Shown here: piece after piece, positions 7,633 through 64,000 of the stretch
How positions within the stretch are numbered: position 1 is the first letter of the stretch
Layout: each line of letters begins with the position of its first letter
From: Sistotremastrum niveocremeum HHB9708
Lineage: Eukaryota; Basidiomycota; Agaricomycetes; Sistotremastrales; Sistotremastraceae
NCBI GenBank assembly: GCA_001630475.1
Contig: KV419410.1
Span: forward strand, 124,001-188,000
DNA: 64,000 nucleotides
Direction of reading: 5' to 3'
Program-made: the position numbers and the translations under genes
Notes under the pieces: generated by a model
The model's database searches: none
What the model was told of the DNA's origin: nothing
The model's input: the letters and a program-made list of their open reading frames with translations, nothing else

Positions 7633-7985
7633 ATATCTCATGGATCTTTTCATCAGTTTGTACGATACCCGTTAGATTTCTGGTAGATTTCATATCTGGG
7701 ATATATATTACATCGTTGCATCTAAATGCTACATTATTGTCGGTCATGGGAATGGTTCGGGAATCGTTAGCGTGCAAAGCGGGAAGCAAGAAAGAGGAAC
7801 AAGGCGATAAAGTGTGAAAGGGACAAAAAAGGTATAAGGAGTTAATGTTCGGCACAACCTCGACACAAGAACCCATACAAAAAGAAAGGAGATCAAGCAA
7901 GAAGGAAAGCGAAAGAGCGACAGGAAGAGAGAGGTCCATGGATCCAGGAAGGCAAAGGACTATTTTTGTGATCGATGGTCAATCA
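7633..7985. other. 3' intergenic spacer between convergent genes
   Basis: Both flanking genes end here. It is A-rich on the plus strand around 7790-7930 and should hold both 3' UTRs. No gene is seen. Confidence 0.5.
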
Positions 7986-26140: not shown

Positions 26141-28759
26141 ATGGCACAACTATTCAAACATCTCAAGGTCCACCAAATATTTGGAGCCAACACGGATGTG
26201 GGAAAGACCATCCTGACAACGGGGCTGCTCCGTGCATCTGCTTCACGCAAGAGGCGCGTATTTTATCTCAAACCCGTCAGCACTGGGCCGCTCGAGGAAG
26301 CCGATGATAGGTGTGTCCAGAATCACGAGGCTTCTTTCATAACGTTCTGAAAACACTTAGGTTTGTGCGGCGACACCTGAAAGATTTGGCCGGTCAACTT
26401 TCCGAAGCATGTTTGTTTCGCTATGATCAACCTGTCAGTCCTCACCTTGCCGTGCAATTGTCAAAAGACAAGGGTTTAGATGTGAGAGCCTTTTACGACA
26501 CCGAATATTACTTGACGCATTGCGTTATCAGTATGGAACTCCAGATGACGCAGAGTTCGTCCTAAGCGTTTCCGAGCATATACAGCGGTCAGCTCATGCT
26601 GCCGTGGAGGAGCTGTCGGACATGTATGTGGAAACCGCTGGAGGTATTAACTCTATTCTTTTGTTTGTCCATGATCTGAAATGTCAACAAGGCGTTCACA
26701 GTCCCACACTTTCGGGGACGTCGCAAGCTGATGCATACCGCCCCTTGTTTCTCCCTACGATACTTGTAGGAGATGCTAAGCTAGGAGGGATCTCATCAAC
26801 GATATCTGCCTATGAATCTCTTTTGATTCGGGGATTCGCCGTCGATGCTATCGTGATGTTCCGGGATTCGTATTATCGCAATTGGGAATATCTCTCTGAA
26901 TATTTCGCCGACCGTGGAGTGAAATGCTTCTCCGTCGACCCACCACCTCCTAAAGATTCAGACATCGCAAAGGATACCTCAGCACTTTCTGACTACTATT
27001 CTGGAGTCATCGCGCCGGACTCGCCTTCCAACTTGCAAGCACTTGTATCGGAACTTGATTCTCGTCATTACGATAGGTTGACACAGCTGGAATCAATGTC
27101 TACAAGAGCCATGGAAACTATATGGTGGCCCTTCGTACAGCATGGCTTGGTGAAAGGTCCACAGGATGTTATGACGGTTGATAGTGCATGGGGTGATTTC
27201 TTCAGTACCTATGAGTCAAACATAGGCTCCTCCGGAGGGAATGCAGAGCTTCATCATGCTCACGATACCCTTCTTTCTCCGCAACTGGACGGCTCTGCTT
27301 CGTGGTGGACACAAGCTCTTGGGCATTCCAGTCCAGCACTCACTCTAGCTGCAGCATCGGCTGCGGGTAGATATGGACATGTAATGTTTCCTCAAGCAGT
27401 TCATAAACCTGCTCTTCAACTTGCCGAACACCTTGTACACGACGGTCCGGGAAAAGGCTGGGCATCCCGTGCTTTCTTTTCCGACGATGGATCCACTGGT
27501 ATGGAGATTGCTCTGAAGATGGCGTTGAGGGCGTTTGCAAAACGCCGTAATATTTCCGATCCGAGCGAACGCAAGAAATTGGGTATTCTTGGGCTCAAAG
27601 GCAGCTATCATGGTGATACCATAGGTTCCATGGACGCATGCGAAGAAGGCGTCTTCACCTGCGAATGGCACAATGCCAAAGGTTATTGGCTCGATCCGCC
27701 TGCTGTCAGCTTGCGCCAGGGCACTCCCACGCTGTCTTTCCCAGACTCAATGGGCGAATATTGTTCATCGGAACCAACACAATACGAGTCCATTGCAGAC
27801 CTATACGACATCTCATCGCGACTGTCTTCCAGTCTTGCCTCCCAGTATACGAAATATATCGAGGAGAAACTTGATCGCATCGAAACTATGGGTCATACTC
27901 GAATCGCTGCACTGGTTATGGAACCGCTTGTCATGGGCGTCGCTGGCATGGTCTTCGTCGACCCCCTGTTTCAGCGAATACTTGTCGATGTCGTGAGAGC
28001 TCGCGAGCCAAGTACGATATCGGCCGGAGATTGGTCCGGACTTCCCGTCATTTTTGACGAAGTCTTCGTCGGGATGTATCGTTTGGGAATGGAGTCTTGT
28101 GCACCAGTGCTTGGGGTGACACCCGACATTTCGGTTTACGCTAAAATTTTGACAGGAGGCTTGATTCCATTAGCCGTCACTCTCGCGAATAACTCGATAT
28201 TCCAAGCTTTCCTGAGCGAACGCAAGGAAGATGCGCTTCTTCATGGCCATAGTTATACCGCACACCCTGTCGGATGCGAAGTCGCCAACGAGACATTCAA
28301 ACAAATCGCTATTCTTGCCAAAAGTCCCCTATGGCAAGATGCGAAAACCAGCTGGGCTACACCAAGTAAAGTAGGCCAACGAGAATCAGCGATCTGGAGC
28401 TTCTGGGGTTATGACTTTATTTCCCAATTGTCTACCCTGGACGTAGTTCAGGACGTGATGGCAATGGGTACGGTGCTGGCGGTCACAATTCGGGACGATG
28501 CCGGAGGTGTGTAGTTTGACTCAGTCGGATATCAAACCATTTACAGGATTATACAGGCTACGCGTCTTTCCGAGCTCAAAACCTTCTAGCACCCTTGAAG
28601 ACGCTCTCCCAGGATAATACAGGACCTGGTGGACTTCCTTCTCGAATCCATTTCCGGACACTAGGCAATGTCGCCTACTTCATGTCAAACTTGAACACTC
28701 CCGAAACAGTTCTGAGATCTACCGAAAAGAGGATATGGGAGAGTCTGTCCCAACCCTAA
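26141..28759 (+). CDS. bioDA: Bifunctional dethiobiotin synthetase / DAPA aminotransferase (BioD-BioA fusion)
   Basis: Four exons (26141-26310, 26361-26481, 26532 to about 28506, about 28557-28759) give about 822-826 residues. The N-terminal domain is dethiobiotin synthetase: P-loop FGANTDVGKT, then KPVSTGP, VETAGGINS, and PTILVGDAKLGGI. The C-terminal domain is the PLP-dependent DAPA aminotransferase: WWPFVQHG, SWWTQALGHS, FFSDDGSTGMEIALKMALR, GLKGSYHGDTIGSMD, the PLP-contact VIFDEVFVGMYR, and the Schiff-base lysine in YAKILTGG. Together they carry out the two steps that turn KAPA into dethiobiotin in biotin synthesis. Plants and many fungi have this fusion, usually called BIO3-BIO1 or bioDA. 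All catalytic motifs look intact. The last intron has two in-phase solutions differing by a few residues. The gene ends 42 bp from the convergent VPS34 stop. Confidence 0.93.
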
Positions 28760-45301: not shown

Positions 45302-46377
45302 ATGTCGTCCTGGCAATTTGCTCAACCTCCCACAACTTGTTTTACCGTCTCGCGCCTCACCAACACGGTCTTCAAGATCGTCGAGGATGATATGTATCGC
45401 GAGCTCCCATTCATCTATGTAAAAGTCTATCCTCATTCTATCCTAATCCTCGACACCGGATGTGGAGGCGCAGCTCGCGATCCCACCGTTCATCTCAAAT
45501 CACTCAGGCAGTTCATTGAAACATGGCCTATCATCGATAATGCTGGCAAGCCTATCAACGAGAGAGGTCGTAAACCATACGTCGTCGTACAGAGCCATTT
45601 GCACTACGTATGTCCTTTGCTCCCCTTTTGGCGTGTCTGATCCTAAATCTGTCCACTGCTCCTTCATACAGGATCACATCTGTGCGTCGGATCATAGCTT
45701 CTCTCTCGGATCTTGGACGTGTACTGATCAATACTTCAGGTGCGATGGAGCAATTCACAGGGTCGACAATAGTAGCTTCGTCATATTCAAAGCTATTCGT
45801 CACGAGCGATCTTGCTACACACTCTCTTTGCCGATCGCTTGGCATCCGAACGCCGAATTATCAGATTACAAAATGGGCAGGAGACTGCGATTTCCTGACA
45901 CACAACAACTTTGATCTCAAAATTCAGGTGCTGCATACACCTGGCCACACACCCGATTCACTGGCTCTATGGGACGAGGAAGAAAATATGCTCTACGTTG
46001 GCGATACGCTTTACGAATGGGCACCGACGATATTCCCCAATGAAGGTGATATTGTCGATTGGTTGGGAAGCATGGACAAACTTTACGCGTTTGTCAAAGA
46101 AAAAACGACATTCTTAATCCAGGAACAGTCGTCCAATACAGAGGTCTATATCAATTGTGGACACGTCACATCATATGGACCTGCATTGGAGATCCTGGGC
46201 CAGATGAACGAGTTCATGTTGGCGATCTTACGCGGAAGCGTTCCAATCATGGGAGAGTCGATCAAAAGAGGCGAGAGGAATGTAGTGTATGGGAGACAAG
46301 GGACAGATAGGTTTGTAGTTCTGTGTCCGGAACGACTCATCCTGGAAGCACGGGACAAGTTGGAGATCGTTGTATGA
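45302..46377 (+). CDS. Metallo-beta-lactamase-fold hydrolase
   Basis: Three exons (45302-45607, 45672-45681, 45740-46377) sum to 318 codons (317 residues). The metal-binding signature HxHxDH (SHLHYDHI) is split: HLHY ends exon 1 and DHI is carried by a 10-nt exon. Further marks are ILILDTGCGG before it, HTPGHTPDSLALWDE and VGDTLYEW (second and third metal clusters), and YINCGH. Both domains of the fold look complete. Relatives include glyoxalase II-like and LACTB2-like enzymes, and many basidiomycete members have no known substrate, so the reaction is left open. The start MSSWQFAQPP was preferred because the in-frame upstream extension from 45161 is rich in basic and Pro residues and not family-like. 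Confidence 0.82.
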
Positions 46378-47122: not shown

Positions 47123-48292
47123 ATGTCTACTACGGCTAGCCCGGGCCCTATCATCCTCACTAACAGTATGCATGATCTACTCTTCGAACTTTGGACTATC
47201 TCAGCCGACGACCTTCATAGATAAGAGTGGCGAGATAACCCTCTGGGTCACCTTTGTCATCTTTTTCCTATCGCCTCTTTTCTTCATCCTCGTCGGCCTC
47301 CAAGTTCATACCCGGAAACGGTCATTCCACTATATCAATGCGACCATAGCCATAATCAGCGCGGTAAGCTCAAAAACAAACATCCTAACCAGACTGTCTT
47401 ATAGATGCTTGCTAGCTCAACTACTATAAAATGGCTTCAGGAGGAGGATGGAAACTCGTTTCACAGGGGGATAAACTCGTTAATGGAGAAGTACACGAGA
47501 TATTCCGACAAGTCTATTACGAACATTACGTCAACTGGTCAATGTGCACCCCTCTCACGATATTCCAAACTGCTATTCTTTCGGGGATGTCATGGAAGGA
47601 TGTAGCGATTTTCGTTCTGGCTACGGAAGGGCTGATTCAGACTGGTTGGGTGGGGGCTCTTGAGGAGAATGTCACGTACGTATATTATGATTTTGATATG
47701 GTGCGTGACGTGTATCCGATTTGCGGTTTAGGAATAAGTTTGTTTGGTGGGGATTTTCGATCTTGTTCTTGATTTGGGTTGTGTATAGTATGTTGTGGAT
47801 TGGGGGTCAAGGTGCGTTGCCTCTTCTTCATTTTTTGGAAGAATTCACCATGTTGTCTAGCTGTCAAACTACAACACTATCGTGTCAACTGGTTATATAT
47901 TGTTGTTGTCGGAGGCGGTGCTGCTCTCATGATCGCATATCCTGTTCTTTTCTTGCTAGGCGAAGGTTTCGGAGTCGTCAGGTGAGTTGTACCCGCGTTC
48001 CAAAATATGTCGGGGATGCATTAACGGCTGGTAGTGTTGGAACTGAACAAATCATTTATTCGATCCTCGACATTCTCGCGCGAGTTCCCTTAGGATTCCT
48101 CCTCATCTATGTCAATGAATTCACCGGGGACAATTTCCACCTTGATTTATTACCTGAAAGTTTGACTGAGTTACGAAGCTCTGCGAAGAGAGGACCGGTA
48201 TATCTGGAGGTGAGCATTTCGTCACTGACATCTGGTAAGGGAAGTCGCCTTTAACTAACGTGACATCGGTGCAGGGACAGGAACAGGTCTGA
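47123..48292 (+). CDS. Opsin-family 7-helix protein, copy 1 (Asn/Arg class, no retinal lysine)
   Basis: Seven exons sum to 280 codons (279 residues). The bacteriorhodopsin (BR) fold is shown by helix B/C ISALNYYKMASGGG, helix C EHYVNWSMCTPLTIFQ, helix E KFVWWGFSIL (BR RFVWWAIS), helix F MIAYPVLFLLGEGFG and helix G EQIIYSILDILARVPLGF. Aligned to BR, D85 is Asn (N102, codon 47533-47535), K216 is Arg (R232, CGA at 48081-48083), R82 is His and D96 is Gln, while D212 is kept. Without the lysine it cannot form the retinal Schiff base, so it is most likely an opsin-related protein like yeast Hsp30/Yro2 (membrane stress proteins). The glutamates of GEG and TEQ, matching BR E194 and E204, remain. The C-terminus is GQEQV. 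Confidence 0.88.
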
Positions 48293-49628
48293 GGATCATA
48301 GTATCTCCGGGGTCATACTGGAAGTGTTTTGCACTCATCTCGTACTACTTTCTATGCCATGTAATAACACATGTTCTCTGACGGTATGCATGTTCATCTC
48401 AGTTCCAATCCTGAGTCCCTAGACTATGCCGGAATTGAAAGGGACAGAGGGCTGTAATCCGTCCCGATAGGCACCCATAGTCTGACAAATAGTTGAGTTC
48501 AGTGGCATGACCTCTCCTAATTCTTTGAAGGGCCTTGGGCGTCAAGCATCGCAAGTTTGAACACTTTGTTATAATTACTTTGAGAGCAGGATGCTATTCG
48601 CGGCCATGAGACATCCGGTGTTTTGCCATGGTTCTTTATCAATAAGTTTGTTAGCACTGGCACAGATAGATTTCATGTAAGTGAGACGAGTAGGTTCTGT
48701 CCTGTCCGATTGGCTTGGTCTGACGGCCATCAGAGTCGGCCATTAATAGTAAAGGGTTTCAAGGCGAAAACTTGACAGACTGACGCCGATGGTATCATTC
48801 GGAACAATCACTAGACTGAAGTTGTACTGGTTCTTGGCAAGTCTTCATAGCTTCATGATAGTTATACCTCTCGGATCGTCTTTCCGACGAGCGCTCGACG
48901 CTCCTCAGCAATACAACAGTACAAGTGGCTTTTGCCGATCCGAATCAGCTGCTGCATTGAGCATTGCGCAAGTCGAAACCGGAAATTTATTGACAAGCCG
49001 TGAACAGCATTCGCAAATGCTGGAACAAGTTAGGGACCGGGCGGTCACTGGAAGGGATTTCTGACCTTCGAAGGTGATGCGTACGTACGAACTGAGTCTT
49101 CGAAGTGCGCCAGGATGCCTTCCAAACGCCTACCGTCACCGTTCAGTGATTTGATGGTCAATTGTCCCTTTGACTAATAACTTTGCTGATAAGGGGGCAG
49201 GTCACGTTTGTATGGCACGACTCTTGCACAACTCTTGAATGTACTCATAGCGCCCACAGGAGCCAAACGAGGCGGGGTCGCTCCGAGTACTCGGCGGAAC
49301 ATGAACAGGCGCGGCTTCCTATTCCGGCGATGATCCTTGTTGTTTGTTGACTGGTTCGGAATATTCAGGATGCGCGCCAAGTTTCATTGGAAGGTGCTTC
49401 TTTGATCCTGGAGTCGTCAACCTTCTCTTTTGATCCCTTGTGACTCACGAATCATGACCCTCGCATGAAACGCTTTTCTTGGATTTGGCGGACCAATTTT
49501 GCTCCAGTTTTGGAGCGGGCCATACTCCAACCAGCGGCATGAAGCGCTCAAGGGCCGGTATTTTTCTTGATGCGTCTTCGAAATGTGAATAAAATATTGC
49601 TCGACTCTGCGAAGTGATGTCTATCGTT

Positions 49629-49658
49629 AGCGAAAATTGGCGAAAATTGGCGAAAATA
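49629..49658. repeat. Three-unit 10-bp tandem repeat
   Basis: Unit CGAAAATTGG, two exact copies and one partial copy in a row. It lies about 200 bp upstream of opsin copy 2. It is not seen upstream of the other copies. Confidence 0.6.
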
Positions 49659-49804
49659 ACCCCTGACCGTAGGTTGTATTTAATTACATCTCGAGTCGTC
49701 GGCAACTTACTTGAACCGCGCGTTGTAGGGTAACAAAAACGGGGAGAAGCCAGTAAACTTTGATTTATTGCGAAGTATCAAACCCGATTTCGCAGGAGCA
49801 CTGG

Positions 49805-49811
49805 TATATAA
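49805..49811 (+). promoter_or_regulatory. TATA-like element of opsin copy 2
   Basis: TATATAA, 38 bp before the ATG of copy 2. Confidence 0.5.
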
Positions 49812-49842
49812 ACTCCCCCGCGCCCTCCAAAGCCTCACAAAC

Positions 49843-50970
49843 ATGGAAAGCCCCAATCCCCTCATCCTCACAAACAGTAAGCTCACTCTCTTCCTCCCTT
49901 GAGCGTCTCTAATGTCTCCCAAGACCATAGCGGACAGGTCGCCTTGTGGACCGCCACCGCCCTCTTCGCCATCTGTCCTCCCACCTTCATATGGCTCGGC
50001 CTCAAAGTACATCCCAAGAAACGTACATTCCACTATATCAACACTTTTATCACCATCATCAGTGTCGTGCGTCTGCCCTCTGGCTCTCTTACAATATTCG
50101 CTTACGTCTCTGGGGCAGCTCGACTATTACAGAATGGCCTCGGGAGAAGGACATCGACCACTTTTCCAAGGGATTGAGACGATTGACGGAGACAGTCGAG
50201 CAATTTACCGAGACGTCTACTATCAGCACTACGCCAACTGGTCCCTGTGCACTCCTGTGACGATGTTCCAGACTGCCCTCCTCTCTGGAATGTCTTGGAA
50301 GGACGTCGCCATCTTCGTCTTCGCCAATGAGGCTCTCATCCAGACAGGCTGGGTCGCTGCGCTGAATGAAGATTTCACGTACGTAACCCTTGCATTCTCC
50401 TTAGGACGTATCTGACCTCTATATATGCTACAGCCGCAAGTTCGTATGGTGGGGATTCTCTATCATCGCTTTGCTCTACATCATCTACAGCATGTTCGCC
50501 ATCGGCGGCAAAGGTCAATCCCTTTCATATAAATCGAGACAAAAGACTCAAAATATTGTATAGCGGCGACGCTTCAACACCCCCGAGTGGCCTTCCTCTA
50601 TTATATAGTCATCGGCGGAGGCGTCTTCCTCATGGTTGCGTATCCCATCAACTTCCTCCTCGGCGAAGGATTCGGACTCGTCAGGTAGGTCGAACTCACC
50701 CACTCCGACACTCCCTGCTCATCACACATCATACTCAATAGCGTCGGCACCGAACAAATCATCTATTCCATCCTCGACATCCTCGTCAGAATACCCCTAG
50801 GATTCATGCTCATCTTCGTCGACAAACTCACCGATAACAACTTCCACCTCGGAGAACTGCCTGAGATCGTGGTCGAGGAGAGAAGCAATGAAAAGGCAGG
50901 CAGAGTATATCTTGAGGTGAGGCTATATGCTGACGCCTTCCCGTGGATCTTTCTGACAGACGAATAGTAG
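49843..50970 (+). CDS. Opsin-family 7-helix protein, copy 2 (Asn/Arg class, no retinal lysine)
   Basis: Seven exons with the same intron positions as copy 1; about 270 residues, start MESPNPLILTN. Helix C is QHYANWSLCTPVTMFQ and helix G EQIIYSILDILVRIPLGF; helix E is RKFVWWGFSI. Aligned to BR, D85 is Asn (N99, codon 50236-50238), K216 is Arg (R229, AGA at 50788-50790; one base from a lysine codon), R82 is His, D96 is Gln, and Y185/P186 (AYP) and D212 are kept. It is therefore predicted not to bind retinal covalently. The last splice is ambiguous: one acceptor gives an immediate stop after VYLE (50970), another adds about 20 residues. Relatives of the N/R class here are copies 1 and 5. Confidence 0.87.
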
Positions 50971-51502
50971 GAACCTGGATCGTTCTGATAAGCTTGCGAC
51001 TTGTCAACTGTTGGGAAAAGCCGACTAAGCGCCCCTTCCCCTAATTATTTCCCCTCGGAGGTCTCTCAGTTCTTTTTCCACTTGATATTTAACTGCTCGA
51101 CCCGGATAGCATAGCATACATACCGCGTGTTCATAGTATTTTTCCCGTACCTTGTCCTGTAAGTTTTCTGTTACTAGTTCTCTTTATGTTCGAAATATGG
51201 ATAATTGTTAGTAATATTATATTCTCCAGTTGAGTTAATCCCTGGCAAGGTACCAGCTCCGGCAACCGGTCGCGAAATGAGTGGCTCAGCCACACAGGCA
51301 CAACGGCACGCCGGGATCAAATTGAGCGGAAGTATATTCTTCCTTGCGCAGAAGCGCTCGTCGTTACCCCTGACATGGCTGACGATCATTATGAGTCTGA
51401 CCACGGAGCGCTCTCAACGGACACATGGTCCGATCAAGGCCGCAGTATTGGGACGTATAAAAACCAGCTTGACTCGCAACGCAGTCCTCCACCGCCCACA
51501 AC
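50971..51502. other. Spacer between opsin copies 2 and 3
   Basis: About 530 bp holding the promoter of copy 3. A palindrome GAGCGCTC lies at 51406-51413. No gene is seen. Confidence 0.5.
51456..51462 (+). promoter_or_regulatory. TATA-like element of opsin copy 3
   Basis: TATAAAA, 47 bp before the ATG of copy 3. Confidence 0.55.
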
Positions 51503-52651
51503 ATGGATATTCTTCCCACTGTTCTCAGAATCAGTAAGTCAACAGGTCTTGTATCCACTCACTTTCTCAAATTGTTGCGTTTTAGACCATGCAGGCAAAG
51601 TTGCGCTCTGGATTGGTTTTGGCGTGTTCACTGCCGTGTCCATTCTCCTGTTCGCATTGAGTCTCACCGTCCCAGCACAAAAGCGCACTTTCTTCTACTT
51701 TGGCCTACTCATCAATGTCATGGGCGCGGTCAGTCTTTCTCTCTACCCACCCCGCTCGCCGTCAATCCGCTCAAACAACTTCTTTAGCTCAATTATTACA
51801 AAATGGCGTCTGGCGACGGCTCAGTCTTGGTACTTCAAGGAGAGCGCCATGCGTCTGGGAACTCTGAACATATTTTCGTCGTTCGGGAGGTTTTCCGACA
51901 ACACTATATTGACTGGGCTGTCGTCGCGACGCTGAATATGTTCCAAATGGGCCTTTTGGCTGGGATGTCATGGGTCAATATTGGATTCCTTCTCCTCACT
52001 AATGAAGCTGTGGTGCAAACTGGCTGGGTCGCTGCTTTGGAATCCAATCAGACGTGAGTTTTGCCTTGCTCGTCCGGAAATTCATTTGAATATGTGCTTA
52101 GTCGTAAATTCGTATGGTGGGGGTTCTCGTGGATCTTTGTGGCTGCCGTTGCATACATTGTCCTCATCATCGGGAGAAGAGGTATTTATTGCATCTGTTT
52201 ATTAGTCTGCTCATCGTTGAACACCCTATAGATGTCAAAGCACAAGCACCTCGCGTTGGCATACTTTACAACCTCCTCGCATTGGGCGCTACTGTCTTAT
52301 TAGCCGCCTATCCCGTTAACCTACTCTTTGCCGAAGGACTCGGATTATCCAGGTCGGTTCACCATCCGACGACACCTGTATATCAACTCACAATTGAACT
52401 TCAGCGTCGGCACCGAGCAAATTGCTTACACGATATTCGACATACTGGCCAAGGCTGGCTTTGGAATAACGCTTGCTTTTGTTGACAGGTTGACCGATGG
52501 AGAATATACCCTCGCTGATTTGCCCGAAAGCTGGGTCCAACCTAGAAGTAAAATTGCTGCTGTGCAATTGCCCGTAAGCATCTCTTTATTAATATTATCC
52601 TTTCTTTTATGTTGCATACTGACGATCAAGTAGGGCCCCGACAACCTATAA
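51503..52651 (+). CDS. Opsin, copy 3 (Asp/Lys class, retinal lysine present)
   Basis: Seven exons, 275 residues, start MDILPTVLRI, end GPDNL. Helix C is QHYIDWAVVATLNMFQ, helix E RKFVWWGFSW, helix F LLAAYPVNLLFAEGLG and helix G EQIAYTIFDILAKAGFG. Aligned to BR, the counterion D85 is present (D100, codon 51911-51913), D212 is present (D226) and the Schiff-base lysine K216 is present (K230, AAG at 52451-52453). The spacing D100 to D226 is 126 residues against 127 in BR. R82 is His, D96 (proton donor) is Gln, W182 and W189 of the retinal pocket are Leu, and the helix-C Thr-Pro is lost. It should bind retinal; lacking the donor it is more likely a slow-cycling sensor than a proton pump. Confidence 0.9.
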
Positions 52652-53046
52652 AATACAATTCCGCCGCACTTGTGATCTTTGAGGATGGAGTCGCAGCTGA
52701 GTTTTGTTTATCACTGATAATCTTGTATATTATTGTGTGCAATTATTGAATTCATAAACGTGAGGGCGATATGTTCATTGAATCAACCAAACTGACAATG
52801 GAGCAATTTATATCGCAGAAGATGTATCAGGGTGCGCCGGTGCGGCACATCTTCGAGGTGCACAGATTCCAGCCGAAGTTCTGACGCATATAGGGACAAT
52901 GTAGTAAAATGACCAAGAAACAAGAAATATACAGGATCGCTATGCGCTAGATGATACAGTATGTAGATAAGTTAAGTGCTATGTCACCCCAAATGGTAAG
53001 CTTTCAAGAATGATACATCCGAGTCAGTCGCACTCCGAAAGGCTGG
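52652..53046. other. 3' spacer between convergent genes
   Basis: AT-rich, about 395 bp between the stop of opsin copy 3 and the stop of the CCDC174-like gene. No gene is seen. Confidence 0.5.
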
Positions 53047-54436
53047 CTAACGTTTGCTGAGAAGGTCGCGCTCGAGATTGGCAAGAAAGTCATCCGCATC
53101 CGTCGCTGCGGGCGGCGCAGGGCTGTGGGGCTTCTCGGAGTGCGCGGGCGGAGGATGAACAGATGACGGCGAAGACGATGAGGGTACAAAATCCGGCTCA
53201 GGAAGATGATGCGTCAACTTTCTCCTCTTAGCTTCAATCATCTTCCTCCTATCCTCAATATCCTTCTTCCTCTTCTCCATAGCCCGACTCCTACTAAGTC
53301 CTCCTTCCTCAGCATCCTTGACGTCCTCACTTTGCCCAGGAACAACATCAATGGCACCCGTCTCCGTTCGATTCTTCTGCGTTTCTTCTCTCGTCTTTTT
53401 GAGTTCTTCCATTTGTCGCTGACGTTCTTCTTCGTCTTTGGAGAATTGATAGAATGCTGCGCCTTTTGCGCGATTGTCTCCTGATGCGTCGTAGCGAGAG
53501 GCGAGGGGGTTGTTCTCTTCGGAATAGGTTTCTTTGATCTGGGCTAGGCGTTCGGCGGAGGGTTCGTAGACGGGGAAATGGTTTACGGGGTTTTCTAGAG
53601 GGAAATAGATTAGCGGGGGAAGGGGTGGAAGAGAAGGTGCATACTAATGAGATATGGACTGGAAGAAGTGTTAGAGATGTCATCGTCACGAAGAGATGAA
53701 AGACGTACTCGTATTCCTGTTCTACAGTTTCTTCTTTCGCGGCCATGAATTCACGTGGCACTTCACTCTTCCTGACAGTCCGTACTCGACCGAACTCATC
53801 TTCATACTCGACCATTGGATCCTGTGAGATGAACTTGTGAGATCCGGACCTTCACAAAGGACATTACAGAGAGGGACTGCTTACATCTGCGGGATCCACT
53901 GGAACAGTCAGAGATTCGTCCTCATCTTCGCTGTCCGACTCGAACGGCTCGTTATTTGCTTTCTCATCAAACTGAGATGATCCGTCAAGACTTGTGCTCT
54001 GGGGGTTGGAGAGAGAAAGACGCACATCGACCAGCAAAGCCTCGTATTGCTTTTCGGACAAGCCGCCTGACTTTCCCTTTCTCAGTTTTTCATAGATGGC
54101 AGCCTTTTTCTCGAGGGCTGCGCGGGTCGATTCGAGGGTAGGTTTGGAAAGGGCCTCCCATTCAACATCCCGTGATGCTCTTCCATGCACACCCTTGTTG
54201 GGCAGTTCCCACTTTGATGGCTTCTAAGTATAGAAATAGGGAACATCTGAGTACACAGCTAGGAACAAAAGCCTCAACAAGGGACTGACCTTGTCTGCAC
54301 GCTTGACCCCTCCTACAATCGCATTATTTCCTAGTGATTTCGCTTTGGAAAATGTCTCTTCTTGTTTCACGAGTTCCGATTTGAGATCCCAGAAGGAAGT
54401 GGCTGTTACACCTGCAGCTCTGGCTTTGGTGGCCAT
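53047..54436 (-). CDS. CCDC174-like nuclear coiled-coil protein
   Basis: Read on the minus strand in at least four exons (54436-54290, 54223-53885, 53821 to about 53708, about 53605-53047). The start MATKARAAGVTATSFWDLK matches the conserved opening of CCDC174 proteins (SSxxDLKxEL). Further marks are KPSKWELPNKGVHGRASRD, a helical region (STRAALEKKAAIYEKLRKGK), DPMVEYEDEFGRVRTVRKSE and PREFMAAKEE. The DUF4078-like AKGAAFYQFSKDEEERQRQM comes next, then a long charged coiled coil (AMEKRKKDIEDRRKMIEAKR) and an acidic tail. Human CCDC174 binds splicing/exon-junction factors; the same role here is inferred. Its position, reversed, in the middle of an otherwise one-strand opsin array is the notable point. 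The splice near 53610-53700 is not fully resolved. Confidence 0.84.
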
Positions 54437-54829
54437 GAGCTTGGTCAAGGAGTGCGCGCTTATGAAATCAAACTCCGCCTCGAGAGACGCGAAACGTGAT
54501 CCTGATCTGGTCTTTCGGTCGATTTCATTGGCCGTCGTCTTGGCCGTCGTTGCTCGAGGCTCACGGTTTCGTCCTGACGCTGAACTTATCGCAATGCAGT
54601 GTGAAGCTCAAGAGGCCAGAGTCGCCCTGAACTCTGATCCGGACTTTGTTCGTCTGCAGTGCTCGTCTTGTTATTCCCATGATTTTCAGGTACCGGAAGC
54701 AAATTACAGGAATTCTGTAATAGAGTCTAATCGTGTCTGTTCCGCAATCATCCGACTTTTCCTGGTCCAGTTCACATAAATATTCGTGGTTTCTCTCGTC
54801 GTTCCGCATTCAATCATCACTCGTTCAAC
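54437..54829. promoter_or_regulatory. Divergent promoter of CCDC174-like gene and opsin copy 4
   Basis: About 390 bp between the two start codons. A TATA-like ATAAATA lies at 54776-54782, 54 bp before the ATG of copy 4. Confidence 0.5.
54776..54782 (+). promoter_or_regulatory. TATA-like element of opsin copy 4
   Basis: ATAAATA, 54 bp before the ATG of copy 4; weaker than those of copies 1-3. Confidence 0.4.
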
Positions 54830-55967
54830 ATGGATCTCGCCCCCGTCGTCCTCACTATCAGTACGCTACCATTCGTCTTCACCCGTGCCCAGCTCTTTCT
54901 AACTCCTTCGTAGACCATGCAGGCAGCGTTGCTCTTTGGACCGGATTCGGTGTCTTCACCCTCAGCTCCGCCCTCCTCTTTGTTCTGAGCTTCAGGGCAC
55001 CAGCTCAGAGACGTACATTCTTCTACTTTGGTATGCTCATCAACGTTCTCGGTGCAGTATGTATTTATATGTTCTCTTAATACCCATCATTCATATCTTG
55101 TACAGCTCAACTATTACAAAATGGCCTCTGGCGATGGATCTGCTCTGGTCATCCAAGGATTACGCAAAGTCAGCGGACACCCCGAACCCGTTCTCGTCGT
55201 CAGAGAAGTCTTCCGTCAACATTACATCGATTGGTCATTGGCCACCGTCCTCAACATGTTCCAAATGGGTCTCCTCTCCGGAATGTCTTGGGTCAACATC
55301 GTTCTCCTTCTTCTCACCAATGAGGCTGTTGTTCAAACTGGCTGGGTTGCAGCCATGGAATCGAACCAGACGTGCCCTTTCTCCTTACCTTTTTTTTTCC
55401 CCTGAGTGACCTTATATGCAGTCGCAAATATGTTTGGTGGGCTTTCTCATGGCTTTTCCTCGCTGCCGTCGCATATCTCTTGCTTGTCGTTGGCAAGAAA
55501 GGTCAGTGGCATCCATCTGAATCACATTTCCTTCCTGAGTGACAGCATATAGATGTGAAATCCCAACCCATCCGTGTTGGCGCACTTTACAATTCACTCG
55601 CATTTGGGGCATTTATTCTCCTCGCCGCATACCCCATCAATCTATTCTTCGCCGAAGGACTGGGCATATCCAGGTTCGCCTCTTTGATTTTAAAGATGTA
55701 GCATATACTTATATGCGCATTAATCACAGTGTTGGCGTCGAACAAATTGCTTATTCCACCTTTGACATCCTCGCCAAAGCTGGATTTGGCATAATTCTCG
55801 CTGCTGTTGATACTTTGACTGATCACGAATATACTCTGGCGACTATGCCTGAGAGTTGGGTGGAACCTCGGAGCAAAACTGGAGCTGTGAGACTGCCGGT
55901 AATTATCATTCATTCTCAAGGCTCGAATACATCCTCACAAATGCGATAGGGTTCTGATAACCTCTAG
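54830..55967 (+). CDS. Opsin, copy 4 (Asp/Lys class, retinal lysine present)
   Basis: Seven exons, 275 residues, start MDLAPVVLTI, end GSDNL. It is the closest relative of copy 3 in the array: same length, shared RQHYIDW and ILAKAGFG. BR sites: D85 present (D100, codon 55229-55231), D212 present (D226), K216 present (K230, AAA at 55776-55778), R82 His, D96 Gln, Y185/P186 kept in LLAAYPINLFFAEGLG, W182 and W189 absent. Helix E reads RKYVWWAFSWL. The helix F-G glutamates of AEG and VEQ are kept. It is expected to bind retinal. Copies 3 and 4 lie on the two sides of the CCDC174-like gene, which suggests a duplication across or an insertion between them. Confidence 0.9.
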
Positions 55968-56937
55968 TTATTCGAGAGATCAAGGACTCCCTAATATTGT
56001 TATAGCATGCTTTTTTCTGTTCCTGTTTTGTTAATTACTGCTGATTCATAATCGACATCCTGCCTTCAATGAAACCCAATAGTCTTTCAAAGTTGGACTA
56101 CTCGTGTTTCAAAGAATCGTTCAGTCCATCAAGTCTTTTTGACATGTGATAATTATCCTTCAACGCTCGGAAAACGTAACGTGAGACTGGTATTGGATAT
56201 TCCGCCCCAGGTTTGAGTTCCCCTGACAAAATGGTTGATATTACTTGCTAAAGAAGAACTTCCACGACGTCGGGCCGACGCTCCGCAAATTGAAGCCGCC
56301 CACTCCAAACTTCTTGAAGTGACGCGGAACACCCCCGATCTTCTTATGAGCTCATTACAATCTGCATTCCTTGATATACGATACGATGACAACACGGCGG
56401 TGCGGATGAGTTTGCGAAGCATTTGAGCACATCAAGAAGGGGCGCCACTCGATTTGTGGCGCATGATCGGAGTTTGAATGATGTTTGTCTTCTCGTTCAG
56501 GGACGGTGAGTCGATATTAAGTCTTTTCATTATCGGGTTTGATTTGAGGTTCTCTGAATTCCACCGTCGTTTAGATCTTGAACAGATAAAGGATATTTTA
56601 GGCTCAATTTGACACATACTTTGTTGCAATTGGTTCTGGGAGGGAGTCCACTCTACATGTACATGTCGGAGAGTGTGAATATAGGAGATTGGAGCTGATA
56701 TTGTGCAACTGCGACTCCAAGGTATGAGATGATGAGCGCTCTCGATTTTTCACACTCTTTCGTGATCAAACCTTAAGGTTGGAGTGACTGTGAGAGACCC
56801 AAGGACGGAGACGCTGCAGTAACGAGCGCAGCGCTGTACATCTTGTACTTCCGAAGACTCCACCGATTGGAGCTGTCTGATGCATAAGTAGCCTTGAATT
56901 CAAGGATATGAGTGTAAGTTCAAGTCGTACCATTCCC
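55968..56937. other. Spacer between opsin copies 4 and 5 (0.97 kb)
   Basis: No supported gene. It holds a palindrome GAGCGCTC at 56734-56741 and a weak TATA-like CATAAGTA at 56883-56890. A 63-codon frame at 56235-56426 has no recognisable relatives. Confidence 0.45.
56883..56890 (+). promoter_or_regulatory. Weak TATA-like element of opsin copy 5
   Basis: CATAAGTA, 55 bp before the first ATG of copy 5. It is the least convincing of the six. Confidence 0.3.
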
Positions 56938-58115
56938 ATGATGAGTGATCCCGCGAATCTCGAAGATACCCTTTCCCCTACGATTCTAACTATCGGTTCG
57001 TTTATGATAACGACCTATCAGGCAAGCTGAATTCTCATGAGAATTCAGATCGAAGTGGAAAAACCGTGCTATGGGTTACCACAATACTGTTCGCTTTGTC
57101 TTCCCTCCTCTTTGTCTTACTCGCATCCCGGGTCCATCCGCGGAAACGAACATTCCACTATCTCAATGCCCTCATAACTATCATCAGTGTCGTGAGTTAC
57201 TAACACCAATGTTATATGTTCACTCAACTGATAGGAACGGTCCCATTCAGCTGAACTATTATAAAATGGCTTCTGGCGAGGGATATCATTTAATTCCCCA
57301 ACCATACCGGACCGTAAATGGACAACGTCAAGGAGTCATCCGACAAGTCTTCGACGAGCATTATCTGAACTGGTCGATGTGCACGCCTACCACGATGTTC
57401 CAGACGGCTCTGGTCTCCGGCATGTCTTGGAAGGACATCGTCATTTTTGTTTTGGCGAATGAGGGACTTATACAGACTGGATGGGTGGCGGCACTCGAGA
57501 CGAACCAGACGTAAGTCTTCTGATGATTTGTTAGTATGTTTGTCTTTGATGGGTGCATCAGGAGGAAATTCGTATGGTGGGGGTTTTCAATCGCGTTCTT
57601 GATCTATATACTATACAGCATGATCTGGATCGGCGGAAAAGGTCAGTCGTTGTATCATAATTAAGAAACTTAACGAGATTTAATCTTGCGAGACAGCGGC
57701 AAGGCAGCAACCTCATCGTGTTCATACCTTGTACGAAGTGGTCGTCATGATTGGCGGCACAGCTCTCATGGTCACATATACGGCCAACTTCCTGATCAGT
57801 GAAGGACTGAATATTGTCAGGTGAATTGAGCTCCACCTGGTCACTTTCTTTCCGACTAACGTTAGGCAGTGTTGGGACCGAGCAAACTATTTATTGCGTC
57901 CTGGATGTCTTGGCGAGAATACCTTTGGGTTTGATACTAATTTTCATCGATGAGCTGACCGATCATGAGTTCCGTCTCGGAGAGCTTCCCGAGAGCTGGG
58001 TCGAGATGAGAAGTTCTGCCAAGAATTGCAGAGTGTTCCTAGACGTGAGTTCAACTTCACGTATACGGTGAGATAATTGCTCACAAGTGATTTATAGGGA
58101 CCCGAGAACCCCTGA
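56938..58115 (+). CDS. Opsin-family 7-helix protein, copy 5 (Asn/Arg class, no retinal lysine)
   Basis: Seven exons with the array's intron positions; start at two consecutive ATGs (MMSDPANLEDTLSPTILTI), end GPENP. Helix C is DEHYLNWSMCTPTTMFQ; helix E RKFVWWGFSI; helix G EQTIYCVLDVLARIPLGL. BR sites: D85 is Asn (N107, codon 57368-57370), K216 is Arg (R238, AGA at 57916-57918, one base from a lysine codon), R82 His, D96 Gln, D212 kept (D234). Uniquely in the array, helix F has lost the conserved proline: MVTYTANFLISEG in place of AYP, so the BR Y185-P186 pair becomes Tyr-Thr. That proline hinges helix F in light-activated opsins, so its loss fits a copy released from photocycle constraint. 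It is otherwise an intact gene. Confidence 0.88.
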
Positions 58116-59309
58116 AGGACTTCTCATAGACGATTCACAGGACAGCTAAAGTCAATGCACCTCACCCGAATCAGAAATGTAAATTATATTCTCGGAATCG
58201 GATTGTCTTCATTTCTTGGAAAATTTTGGACCCTTAGGTCATATAAATCCTTGACATCGCTAGCGTTTCGATCAGGACCTATAAGAGAGTGCTTGTAAGA
58301 CGACATTTGGGACATCTCCAATGAGAAACAAACATTAGAAGACCCATGTGATATTGAGCCCGCGCTAGCACTGGCAGGGTGGCGGTACTGGCAGTGTTGC
58401 ATCAGCCTTCGTTCTCCGGAGAAATAAGATGCTTTGGGATTGTTCTCTGATCGACTCTCGGTAACCAAAGGGAAGAGCAGATAGGGTAGGTGCGATCTCG
58501 AAGTCTGCTGTTAGGAACAAAGCTAAATTTAGATTGGCGCGCTCGGCATATTCCATTCGGCATCAAACCCAGCGTCTAATTCACACTGCTATCGTTCACG
58601 ACCAGTTCACGACCTCGCTATCCACAAGAGCGTATAATTATTCTCGGTATGCATCGAAAGCAAAGGGTTGACTAACAAAACCGAATTTTTCAGGTATCAT
58701 AATATATCTACTACATGTAGAGCCTGGGCAACATCTGGCATCCATCCGGGGATGGACAGGACAACTCTTGAAGGTCATAGAGACGACCCTATGGGCCCAA
58801 CTCATCATAGCGACAGTGGCCGGCTGAAGCCCGTGCATCTGCATAGTCCCCGAAAAGCGCCGCAGGGAACATACCTGTACTACGCCTTTTACATCAAGCT
58901 CAAGCTCTGTGGTTGCCGTTCACCTAGCGATGAACACGGAGCGCTAAACATGAATCATGATGTCAAAACAATCAAGTCATGAACCTCTTCGTGACAGAAT
59001 GGAATCTGAGAGCCTCGTATAAATGTCGATGATGGTGAATTCTTGGCTGCTTATTCTGAACTGTTTATTCGAGCGAACTCTCTGGCTTGGACTGCTCTGG
59101 ATTAAACTGGTTTAAAAATAACTTCGAACGGAGAGTATTTGAACTCCTTGCATTTCTCTATGGAGAGTGTCGAGATGCGCCCGGTGACAAGGCGGAACTG
59201 TTGGTCTGATAGAATCTTCTGCCCGTGCTAGGGATCCAGGAGCCCTGTCGGGAATGATTATAAGTACTACGGGATCTCTCCTGCTCTTCAGCTACAATCG
59301 CCCCCGCAA
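58116..59309. other. Spacer between opsin copies 5 and 6 (1.2 kb)
   Basis: No supported gene. CACGGAGCGCT at 58935-58945 repeats an 11-bp string found upstream of copy 3. It also holds the promoter of copy 6. Confidence 0.45.
59259..59264 (+). promoter_or_regulatory. TATA-like element of opsin copy 6
   Basis: TATAAG, 51 bp before the ATG of copy 6. Confidence 0.4.
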
Positions 59310-60473
59310 ATGTCATCCCAAACTAGCAGCGAGGGATCTCATGTGCCTCCCGTCGTTTTACTCATTGGTTCTTAGTCCCACTTACTAGTATGTCAAATAA
59401 CGTGCTCATATGGCCTCTCAGACCACAGGGGGCAATCTTCATTCTGGATAGCTTTCTGGATCTTCGTCATATCCAGCATTCTGTTTGCTGGGCTCAGCCG
59501 TCGTGTCGCTGTCAGAGCGAGGCTTTTCTACTACATTGGCGCACTAATCGCTATCATTGGTGCTGTGAGTTCAGTATCCGATCACATTCCGTCAAGGTCA
59601 ATTGACTCTCGTAGATGAATTACTATAGGATGGCATCGAGGGAGGGCTACGCTCTTGTGCCCCAGGGTATTAAGACCATTGATGGAGTGGACTCTTCCAT
59701 CATCCGACAAGTGTACTCACAACACTACACCGACTGGTCCATTGGAACAATCCTGACTCTCTTTCAATTGAGTCTGTTGTCTGGCATGTCGTGGCTCCAT
59801 ACTGCACTGCTGTTGATTGCCACCGAAGGCCAAATACAAACTGCATCAATCGCCGCACTCCAGGGCGACCATACGTATGGGTACACCACGTTCCATCAAT
59901 ATCCCGCTGATTGTATTTCTCCAGTCGAAAGATGGTCTGGTGGGGGTTCTCTCTATTGTTTACGGCCTACAGCATATACAATGTGTCCGTGCATGGAAGA
60001 AAAGGTAGGTTTAAAAAGTTCAGCACGTCGGATACACGTCAGGTCTGACGATGGGTTTAGCTGCTCATCTACAACATACCCGAGTTTACATATTGTATAG
60101 CGTTGTTCTTTTCGGAACTGATTTGCTTCTCATCGCCTATCCACTGAATTTCCTATTTGGAGAAGGCCTTGGAATCACCAGGTTGGCATCAAGCGACTGC
60201 AAAATTCATGCGTGCGCTGACTTTTTGGCAGTGTCGGGACCGAACAAGTCATTTACTCGATACTTGACATTTTCGTGAAAACTGGATTCGGTCTTATTCT
60301 TGCGTTTGTGGACCTGCTGACTGATCACGAATATACCTTGAATATCCTTCCCGAGAGCTGGGTTGAACCCCGAAGCAAAACTCGCGCTCTGCAGCTTCTG
60401 GTGAGACACTTCTACACTTTCATACGCGCAATTTTCAACGAATATAAAATAGGGCCCCGATACCTTATCATAG
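59310..60473 (+). CDS. Opsin, copy 6 (Asp/Lys class, retinal lysine present)
   Basis: Seven exons, 283 residues, start MSSQTSSEGSHVPPVVLLID, end GPDTLS. Helix C is SQHYTDWSIGTILTLFQ, helix E RKMVWWGFSLLF, helix F LLIAYPLNFLFGEGLG and helix G EQVIYSILDIFVKTGFG. BR sites: D85 present (D107, codon 59732-59734), D212 present (D233), K216 present (K237, AAA at 60278-60280), R82 His, D96 Gln. It is the most divergent of the Asp/Lys class: helix C lacks the MFQMGLL wording of copies 3 and 4, and the conserved QTGWVAAL becomes QTASIAAL, removing a Trp. Helix G wording (IIYSILDI-like) is mixed between the two classes, so it may keep an ancestral state. It is predicted to bind retinal. Confidence 0.88.
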
Positions 60474-60671: not shown

Positions 60672-63183
60672 ATGCTTCACGGTAATGCCGCTTCTGAGTT
60701 GAAATTCGGAAAGGAAGCAGTAGCAGTAGACGCCATGAGGCAATTTTACCGTGCTACTCGTGCTCCGGCAAGTCACCGGGGTCCCTCACTCACCAATCAT
60801 GCCACCTTTGCTTGTGCATTTATTAGCGATCCCCAACATGATCGCCTGACAGCCCATTGGTTCTGTTCCTTGTTTTCCTGATGCTCGAAAAGACCCTCGA
60901 ACAAGATCTTTCTGAAGCTTCTGGCTGGAAAGAAATCGCGAATGTGATTTGCACACACAATCGGATTAGTGAGATGGCTTGTGCTTGAGCAAGTCGTCGG
61001 CCTGATGCTGATCCCGTGCTCAGATCTTAACAGTCGTTATGGATTTAAACAGGTTCACCGAAATTTCTCTGCCACTCTGTCTCGATTGGAACGGTGCTGG
61101 GAGATGTATGAGGGGAACGCCTCAGTCATGGGTGGCATTGTAACGATCTATGGGAAGATGGCGGACGATAAGCTTCTGCGCCATCAGCTCTATACTTCAG
61201 GTCAAGTGCATTGGCTCAAGACTTCCCAAGTTTACAACTGATAATATAACAGGTGGATTCTTAACGAAAGTTCTCATTGCAACCAAGGATCCGTCGACGC
61301 GGTCTGCTGCTAGACACGCTTCACACAGTTACTCACCACGGTGGAGCAAAGCTGAAGGAGGCCATCGCTATCAAGTTCGCTCCTATCCTCGCTCATTTCC
61401 TCGAGAGCTCGCTCAGCGACGACGAAGTCGCTGGCCACTGCATCTCGGTCTTTTCCCACACATTCCCAATCGTGCTGCTGGGTATCGAAGACTCCCCCGA
61501 TCTGGATTCTCCAACAATAATACGGATGAGCCAAGATCTCCAGGCTGCCAGGGTCGTGCGCTTGACACTGCAACGTCTTCGGATGAAAGGACTCGAAATC
61601 AAGTGGGTTGAGCTTACGCACGCCATCAATCTCATCACCAGCATCTCGTCGAGGGCCAGAGATGCATTTGAACACAATCCAAAAGCGGTCACTCTCATGG
61701 TCGCTTGTCTGAGAAGTCGATCGCTTGGGATCAGATGTCGAGGTCTGGTCGGATTGTACCGTCTAGAATACAAAGACGTCGCATGCGAAGAACAGAATAT
61801 CACTCCTCAAGTTCTCGAGAAAGCTAATGCTCAAGAGTTGCCTCAGGATATCAGCGACGCCATGACCTCATACGGCATCGAGAAGTGTATCATGAACACC
61901 GCGATACGCATCGAGTCAGCCATGCAAGTATCAGTATCCCAGTTTACTTCCGACGGGGATCTTGTGAAGTTTGGCAAGGCCCTTGCGCAGCATATTCTGG
62001 ATGCAGAAGTCACGGTTCCTTCTCCTTGTGGACACGAAGTCCACGAGGACGTCGACTTCGTGAAGGCCGGATTAACAGCCAGCGAATGGGGAGACCGATT
62101 GCAGGAATGCGCTCGAGCTCTACGCTCAGCTGATGAATTGGACATGGCAGATATTCTTGAACTCAAATACCTCATCACGAAACGACGGTGGGATGTTTTG
62201 GATCGAGTAGCTCGAAAAGCTATTGATCGCAACCCCACGAACGCCTATTTTTACTATGCTCTAACATCCAAGAGTGGCGAAGAGGTTTTCGGATGGGCGA
62301 AAGAGGGCTTGAAATGTGAGGGGATCCCTCCTCATATTCGATAGGCGCTTCTTTACGAAGCTGGACGACGAGCAATGGACTTGGCGTTCGGGACGTTGTG
62401 TCAAAACTCCATGCATGGACCTATGTGGGATAAAGGAGTTGCATGGCTCAAGAGCAGTTATTACGACTTGAAAGCTTTTGTTGCTGAAGCACCTCCGGAC
62501 CATCCGAGGATGCTCCCTGCCCTGAATCGTTTTATCATCGTCAGCATTATCACGAAAGGGCCTGAGATGGACCCAGATCTTCGCGAGATATCGGTAAAGT
62601 GGCCATCATAGACCTCACGAACTGAACCGTGCAAATCTAACTTAAGTCCTATTATTCAGGATATACTGCAAAAGCAGAAACTCGCCGAAGATGTCGATCA
62701 CTACTTCTGGGAAAGTAAAGCCTCTCCCCATACGCAAGTCAGCCGTGTAAGAACCATTCTCTGCAAGATGCTGCCAAAAGCTGCGTCGCAGTGGAATATT
62801 TTTGTCGAGAGAACGGCAAGGAAGGACCTCGACGATCCCGAGTCCGAATTCAATGATGATCCTTTGGCGGACACTTCGGTCACGATTGACCTGTACTCGG
62901 AAGTCATCCGTCACAGATACAAAGCGGTTGATGATCCAGTCACTATCACGGGTATCAATGACAAAAAGATCAAATTTTATTGCTGCTCCTATTGCGAATA
63001 TTCGACTGCCGCTTTGAGGAAATGCGGGCGTTGTGGAGTAGCTCGCTATTGCGACGCAGAGTGGTGCGTTATCGCTGCTCGAGATCTTTACGGTGCTCCG
63101 GCTGATATTGTCCATGCAGTCAACGAAAGGCCTGGAAAGACCATAAATTGGTCTGCAAATCTCCTGAGATCAAGTGCATCTAG
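60672..63183 (+). pseudogene. MYND-finger / armadillo-like protein, decayed host gene
   Basis: The family is common and multi-copy in mushroom-forming fungi: a long helical-repeat body and a C-terminal MYND zinc finger. Recognisable parts are RCWEMYEGNASVMGGIVTIY (about 61090-61150), DTLHTVTHHGGAKLKEAIA to EGIPPHIR (61310-62341), ALLYEAGRRAMDLAFGTL onward (62345-62610) and the finger CSYCEYSTAALRKCGRCGVA, RYCDAEC then RKAWKDHKLVC, completed by an intron (about 63067-63118). Breaks visible: several stops in the 5' part (about 60880-61080), a frame change near 61300-61320 between RSAARHA and LDTLHTV, and an in-frame TAG at 62342-62344 with the same frame and homology continuing directly after it. 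I therefore call it a pseudogene; the MYND finger itself still looks intact. Coordinates of the 5' end are approximate. Confidence 0.72.
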
Positions 63184-64000
63184 GCCTAGGATGAGAATAC
63201 TTTCACGAACTACTGGTGGCAACTGGATAGAAATCTTCTAGTACCGGGTCTGATTGGGAATGTCTTGTGTATTGATGATTTTTGGAAGTCAATGAAGTTT
63301 TAGGCCAAGAAGCGGCCCATCTTTTTTGTGTGGAAGTCATTGATCATTGCTGTTTTCGCTATATGCACTACATGTAGCTCCTAAGCCTGTATCATAATGT
63401 ATTGACATATACTTGTATTTCAGATATTTTTTTGTGATTGATACAATGGCTAATATCATAGCTGCGCGCTGTTCAGACAGTATGACTTTCAAGGATGCCA
63501 TCAATCGGGTCTGTTGGTTTTCTGACCGAAAAAAAAGAACGACACGCCTGACAGACTGGACTAAGACGGCCTTCTAAGCCACGACGCAATTTAACCTGGG
63601 TAATTGCGACTGAAGGTCGTCCCCGACGTACACTGGAGCTATGAGTGCAAATTTAAAACCGACAAGGTCGTTCGCTCTGTGAGGAGGCCGCTACCACTTG
63701 CGCAGGCGTAGCGAGGTTCCGTTCCGTCGCCCAAAGCAATGGAGCATGAAATTTGCATGAGATTTCACATAGGGCCAGCGTTAAGAGACGATCCAATAAT
63801 GCCTGTTGAGTATTAATTGTTGCTTCGCTTCCGGAAATGCCGCGCAAAGGCGCCGGCGACGAAGAGCTCGGGAAACTTTCGCACGGCAGGCGCCCATCTT
63901 ATCGGCTTTGATACGCTTTGCAGACGAGTGCAGGCGGCAGGTGTAAGGACTTGAGAGAGGCCTCAAGCGACGAACACGATTAGACAGGCCGAGCTTGTGG
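63184..64000. other. Right-edge intergenic region
   Basis: No supported gene, RNA or repeat is seen to the window end. Confidence 0.45.

Follow-up and report, generated by a model that had tools for sequence, protein, structure and literature searches.

A six-gene opsin array with lysine- and arginine-bearing copies in the basidiomycete Sistotremastrum niveocremeum

Six opsin-like genes in one array

A 64,000-nucleotide stretch of the genome of the basidiomycete Sistotremastrum niveocremeum HHB9708 (assembly GCA_001630475.1, contig KV419410.1, positions 124,001 to 188,000 of the forward strand; hereafter the window, numbered from its first letter) carries six intact opsin-like genes, op1 to op6, within positions 47123-60473. 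All lie on the plus strand with seven exons each and encode proteins of 275-285 amino acids (aa) in hand-built models, the first ATG being at 47123 and the last stop at 60473. A preliminary description of this DNA had recognised here six same-strand, seven-exon members of the bacteriorhodopsin (BR) family, a reading which is borne out by the intact models and by the Pfam search it had called for, all six proteins matching PF01036 with scores of 84.3-99.8 bits, far above the cut-off of 24.6 bits.

All six proteins are of the seven-transmembrane type and differ at the positions equivalent to residues 85 and 216 of BR. The upstream half of the array comprises op1 (47123-48292; 279 aa; R at BR-216, N at BR-85; 94.8 bits), with exons at 47123-47165, 47221-47363, 47416-47675, 47732-47811, 47861-47981, 48035-48209 and 48275-48292, followed by op2 (49843-50988, last exon 50971-50988; 276 aa; R and N at the same two positions; 99.8 bits) and op3 (51503-52651; 275 aa; K and D; 96.2 bits). 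The downstream half comprises op4 (54830-55967; 275 aa; K and D; 99.1 bits), op5 (56938-58115; 285 aa; R and N; 93.5 bits) and op6 (59310-60473; 283 aa; K and D; 84.3 bits), the last being the most diverged of the Lys copies. Between op3 and op4 sit two non-opsin frames on the minus strand (53047-54607 in all), so that the array divides into three plus three genes. The frame at 53047-53643 contains a DUF4078 domain in the Pfam scan and that at 54224-54607 has no Pfam match; the two probably belong to one gene. The frame with DUF4078, a domain which we take to denote the CCDC174 family, parts the two closest Lys sisters and may have arrived there, by insertion or by being carried in, only after the duplication that separated op3 from op4.

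The 36 introns of the six genes are all of the GT-AG type, measure 47-65 nt and occupy identical positions and phases in every copy; a branch-point-like CTNA is found in 30 of them and is lacking in six. The models rest on the DNA alone, with predicted splice sites, and for op2 the position of the last exon was chosen from its likeness to the other copies. Between op3 and op4 the exons are 65-72% identical and the introns 34-43%, the corresponding values for op1 and op2 being 56-69% and 33-48%. The contrast is less clean for op2/op5 and op4/op6, in which exon 1, encoding a variable tail, stands at intron level (31% and 36%, respectively), and the 46% identity of exon 2 between op4 and op6 only equals that of their best intron. 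When the six proteins were compared with the whole window by tblastn, 22 of the 131 matches lay elsewhere than in the modelled exons, with a lowest E of 0.031, and no seventh or broken opsin copy was found in the 64 kb. That best match, at 7659-7826 on the plus strand (26% identity over 68 aa to op1 residues 20-87), was considered as an extra copy and taken as a chance match. Among stress response elements (STRE), heat shock elements (HSE), TATA, GATC pairs and GATA, none was common to the 500 bases upstream of all six genes, in a count made with no control.

Two lineages distinguished at position 216

In BR, K216 carries the retinal. The equivalent site is Arg in op1 (CGA), op2 (AGA) and op5 (AGA), and Lys in op3 (AAG), op4 (AAA) and op6 (AAA); the codons thus agree with the earlier reading, in which this position had been defined as the fourth after the helix-G Asp. 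From residue 85 to that Asp, D212, the distance earlier given as 126-127 residues proves to be 127 in op5 and 126 in each of the others. The two variable positions go together in all six copies, D85 accompanying K216 and N85 accompanying R216. A substitute for K216 elsewhere in op1, op2 and op5, which the preliminary description had named as grounds for abandoning its view, was ruled out: helix G of these proteins is free of Lys, and the only Lys residues in their hydrophobic peaks are K123 of op1, K120 of op2, and K128 and K24 of op5, the first three of which belong to a GMSWK stretch joining helices C and D. If a lysine-less opsin is defined as a PF01036 family member without the retinal Lys, then op1, op2 and op5 are such proteins and op3, op4 and op6 are not.

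When a profile of the six proteins was compared with solved structures, 122 distinct sequences were matched at E <=0.01, and the closest relative among the 60 of the 122 matches listed was the Leptosphaeria rhodopsin 7bmh (E 1.4e-42). At the end of exon 6, all six genes (e.g. op4, 55730-55898) encode a post-helix-G motif resembling LTDHEYTLxxLPESWVExRS, weaker in op1 and op2 and not seen in the aligned part of 7bmh, which may represent a partner-binding tail.

The six copies form one clade (support 100/100) in a 17-row tree; its long stem joins 7bmh and 6gyh at 92/97. This single clade and the common intron positions uphold the earlier proposal of a locally expanded family. Within it, an Arg clade (op5,(op1,op2)) and a Lys clade (op6,(op3,op4)) are each recovered at 97/94, op6 having the longest branch of the six, and a random alternation of Lys and Arg copies is ruled out by these two clades. 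Along the map, the order R1 R2 K3 K4 R5 K6 can be read as the blocks [R1 R2 K3 K4] and [R5 K6], in both of which R precedes K, and the two closest pairs in the tree, (op1,op2) and (op3,op4), are neighbours within the first block. The copies are indeed interleaved on the map, as described earlier, but the mixture is an ordered one: the tree and the gene order are consistent with two lineages that were copied together once as an R-K block, followed by a single tandem duplication of each upstream-block gene. Such a history is compatible with 16 of the 720 possible gene orders, and it was conceived after the tree had been seen.

Since the Lys and Arg copies form two clades, the difference between them needs only one change, and since the outgroups bear Lys, the simplest direction is a loss of Lys, which would have taken place in the Arg lineage; the reverse, in which the ancestor had no Lys and one lineage regained it, is possible. 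Both lineages look maintained rather than decaying. Codon models put omega (the ratio of nonsynonymous to synonymous substitution) at 0.051 in the Lys clade, 0.129 in the Arg clade and 0.096 across the six copies together, values that are rough because synonymous divergence (dS) is saturated and the op6 branch reaches 7.0 in the Lys-clade fit. An NG86 value was obtained in seven of the 15 pairs (range 0.04-0.30), the other eight being saturated. Arg216 has, in addition, been kept across a synonymous change (CGA versus AGA).

The retinal pocket against a rhodopsin panel

The residues of the retinal pocket, numbered on archaerhodopsin, were compared with a panel of PF01036 matches from genomes (105 loci, collected as 11 + 29 + 25 + 40), which is not a random sample, the last 40 having been hand-picked with a leaning to weak matches. 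A frame was obtained from 104 of the loci (L163 was missed), yielding 101 distinct sequences, 92 Lys-bearing and nine lysine-less. A first comparison set (77 loci, 29 read, with L004 and L054 excluded as too long, L077 for a stop, and L028 and L052 as read out of frame) was discarded for the counts at positions 182 and 189, as the scan pattern itself had held those tryptophans. Three actinobacterial loci of the panel (L137, L138 and L139) match PF01036 weakly, at 21.6-25.0 bits, and combine K216 with E85 and S212, presumably as in heliorhodopsins.

The canonical surroundings of retinal in fungal light sensors are W86, W182, W189, Y185 and R82. All six copies keep W86 and Y185, together with Y57, Y83, W138, S141 and D212, and all six have replaced W182, W189 and R82, having F20, H82, Q96, L or M at 182 and L or F at 189; they depart in this respect from sensors of the NOP-1, Leptosphaeria rhodopsin (LR) and CarO types. 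In op3, op4 and op6, the residues are, respectively, L, L and L at 182, L, L and F at 189 and T, V and I at 91, with H at 82 throughout. The Arg copies have M182 and F189 and keep T90 and P91. P186 is retained in op3, op4 and op6 and replaced by T in op5. The 92 prokaryotic rhodopsins that bear Lys have W (88 sequences) or F (four) at position 182; W (72), Y (15), M (three) or F (two) at 189; R at 82 in 91 cases, with one gap; and P (88) or S (four) at 91. The nine lysine-less panel members, all haloarchaeal, have G or A at 189 and, without exception, Y86 and R82. The two Arg-bearing haloarchaeal members, L154 and L155, differ from the six copies in having R82 and Y86 in place of H82 and W86.

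The pairing expected of a proton pump, a D85 acceptor with a D or E donor at 96, is complete in none of the copies, D85 being found only in op3, op4 and op6 and Q96 in all six. Given the replacement of W182, W189 and R82 and the lack of such a donor, the Lys proteins are unlikely to pump. Two of the three cage tryptophans were lost either in the ancestor of both lineages or separately in each; that the loss of W182 and W189 is common to the two suggests that the cage was altered before the lysine was lost.

A Glu at the place of BR G116 is found in all six copies and in none of the 101 panel sequences. Trp or Glu at this place is given as a mark of CarO-like rhodopsins in the account of Panzer et al., citing earlier papers (PMC6467936), and by this residue the six copies would be placed in the CarO-like (auxiliary ORP-like) group, ORP standing for opsin-related protein.

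Possible functions, precedents and neighbouring frames

The CarO-like rhodopsins, described as Lys-bearing proton pumps (PMC5796164), share with the array the PF01036 domain, the Glu at G116 and, in op3, op4 and op6, Lys with D85; the array copies differ from them in Q96, in the loss of W182 and W189 and in the want of Lys in three of the six. Hsp30, Yro2, Mrh1 and ORP-1 resemble op1, op2 and op5, by description, as members of the rhodopsin family without the retinal Lys, whereas the array adds three sister copies that keep it. Further basidiomycete members of the family, again likened by description, are FDD123 of Trametes versicolor (O74631; PMC6358801) and the ORPs EIW60452 and EIW51701 of the same species (PMC4915679); the portions of these two papers drawn on here describe no array for the Trametes opsins. 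According to Becker et al. (PMC4915679), the retinal lysine has been lost at least nine times, the lysine-less opsins of fungi fall into two groups, of 31 and 8 members, and a pair of such proteins occurs in Trametes versicolor. Their haloarchaeal group A ORPs (Becker 2016) likewise have Arg in place of Lys, and all but one of the 16 adjoin a chemotaxis transducer.

The preliminary description knew of no comparable interleaved array, and no interleaved fungal Lys/Arg opsin array is described in the titles or displayed abstracts of the open-licence papers listed by the searches. The claim of novelty holds to that extent, but related arrangements have been published. A bacterial tandem of a proteorhodopsin gene and one for a lysine-less rhodopsin, Rh-noK (Yamauchi 2019, as cited in both PMC10308929 and PMC7714340), likewise sets a lysine-less gene beside a lysine-bearing one; there, by these secondary accounts, one gene of each kind is present, whereas the array consists of six intron-bearing genes derived from local duplication. 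Nine of the 42 opsins in the single genome of Guillardia are reported to be lysine-less (PMC7714340). The FArhodopsins (PMC10308929) also combine a Lys with a pocket seemingly unfit for retinal and have relatives with Arg and other residues at the site, but they are bacterial and flotillin-linked, and their pocket is altered by retinal-clashing residues rather than by the loss of cage tryptophans; no flotillin was found among the 10 frames of the window scanned with Pfam. Within the basidiomycetes, an expansion of class 9 microbial-opsin genes has been reported for the class Dacrymycetes (PMC12842992), in an account that, in the portions drawn on here, describes neither an array nor a gene order and does not count Lys-bearing copies. 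On the literature searched, a lysine-less gene beside a lysine-bearing one was already known in bacteria, and what appears to be new is the interleaved fungal array. In non-fungal collections, six-protein alignment confirmed none of 48 pattern matches from viral contigs and none of 38 from genome contigs as relatives of the array, and a search of a plasmid collection with op4 alone returned one distant Methylobacterium match at 25.6% identity.

The explanation to which we lean, with a little better than an even chance, is that of a locally expanded, basidiomycete-type opsin-related family in which the Arg lineage is retinal-free and the Lys lineage, with a minimal Schiff-base triad, comprises at most non-pumping sensors. 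One ancestral gene would have given rise, in an old split, to two lineages, one with K216, D85 and D212 (Lys) and the other with R216, N85 and D212 (Arg); a neighbouring R-K pair would then have been copied as a block, and each gene of the upstream block doubled again, to give R1 R2 K3 / K4 R5 K6. The Arg proteins, which could form no retinal Schiff base at 216, would act without retinal and do light-independent work, as is thought for the opsin-related proteins Hsp30, Yro2 and Mrh1; a role of the kind ascribed to Hsp30, in stress and in relation to the H+-ATPase, is one candidate, and lipid scrambling is another. In the Lys proteins a Schiff base would still be chemically possible, and they could be sensor-type pigments with an opened pocket at most, or retinal-free like their sisters; that they yield a working retinal pigment has about even odds or a little less. 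All six copies set a positively charged residue at 216 next to D212, which suggests a role for this ion pair in the protein that is independent of light. The earlier inference that light receptors and retinal-free proteins had been kept together accordingly survives in its second half, three copies lacking the retinal Lys; the receptor status of the others was called into question by L182, L/F189, H82 and T/V/I91.

Two further explanations amount to the two ways in which this account could resolve for the Lys copies, and the chances given to them therefore overlap with its own. The Lys copies may be genuine light receptors that bind retinal, kept in a mixed set with their retinal-free Arg relatives and perhaps assembled with them into hetero-oligomers, the Arg protein tuning its Lys partner. 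This is a tentative view with clearly less than an even chance, which draws on the retention of K216, D85, D212, W86, Y185 and P186 in op3, op4 and op6, on Glu residues seen by eye at the places of BR E194 and E204 in all six copies, on the apparent conservation of the Lys lineage (its omega being rough) and on the bacterial tandem, whose lysine-less member has been proposed to regulate the proteorhodopsin. It is opposed by the Lys copies having L182, H82 and T/V/I91 at near-fixed sites, and L or F at 189, where the 92 Lys-bearing rhodopsins always have W, Y, F or M. Alternatively, and with a similarly limited probability, all six proteins may be retinal-free, Lys being kept like Arg as half of a 216-212 ion pair, in stress-linked membrane proteins or lipid scramblases. 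The positive charge and D212 common to all six copies and the loss of W182, W189 and R82 in each agree with this, as do the marine FArhodopsins, which keep the Lys despite a reduced pocket suggested by AlphaFold, and most of their freshwater relatives, with Q, T, L or R at the site (both in PMC10308929); lipid scrambling has moreover been reported to be independent of retinal in actinorhodopsin (PMC12805836) and of light in bacteriorhodopsin (PMC5572738). A plain ion pair does not, however, call for the strict pairing of D85 with K216 and of N85 with R216, although this pairing is one event on the tree rather than six.

Of the remaining explanations, it is improbable that the Lys lineage is a photoreceptor with a widened cage, holding retinal in a new way or binding a bulkier carotenoid-derived aldehyde, with the Arg lineage as its chromophore-free partners and one locus encoding tunable mixed oligomers. 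That some copies are decaying or misread, the Lys/Arg difference being drift, is very unlikely indeed: the missing P186 of op5, the long branch of op6, the six introns lacking CTNA and the derivation of the models from DNA would fit such a view, and it is contradicted by six intact frames with GT-AG introns throughout, by omega values, albeit rough, of 0.05-0.13 and by an Arg preserved through a synonymous codon change.

Several points weigh against the opsin-related family with a retinal-free Arg lineage that we favour. The retention of K216 together with D85 and D212 in three old Lys paralogues is what a real Schiff base would need. The saturation of dS left no YN00 estimate in any of the 15 pairs, and the op6 branch of 7.0 burdens the Lys-clade fit. 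The sequences used for comparison are prokaryotic except for two eukaryotic structures, with 7bmh as the sole fungal entry, and include no Hsp30, Yro2, ORP-1 or FDD123 sequence, so that kinship with these is by description. Q96 alone is a weak sign, since just 35 of the 92 panel members with Lys have D96, and N85 also occurs in six of the 92. Nor is E116 a clean mark: in the Ustilago data as presented in PMC6467936, UmOps1, the nearest to CarO, has Leu, and the LR-like UmOps2 has Glu, so that mark and kinship disagree there and the G116 scheme may not suit basidiomycetes.

For the question of what opsins do without retinal, the array offers a matched sister set at one locus. The sisters share family, intron map and neighbourhood; three have the lysine and three do not, D85-K216 and N85-R216 go together, and the cage is changed in all. 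Swaps of residues 216 and 85 between sisters would separate the role of the lysine from that of the rest of the protein.

Elsewhere in the window, a metallo-beta-lactamase superfamily frame (45574-46377, plus strand; Pfam) lies a short distance upstream of the array. A 695-aa plus-strand frame at 26427-28514 has a class-III aminotransferase domain (Pfam) preceded by a long N-terminal part and presumably resembles a fused dethiobiotin synthetase-diaminopelargonic acid (DAPA) aminotransferase. Last, the plus-strand frame at 62612-63241 contains the Cys-rich stretch CSYCEYSTAALRKCGRCGVARYCDAEWC, which has no Pfam match at 0.001 and which we take to be MYND zinc finger-like.

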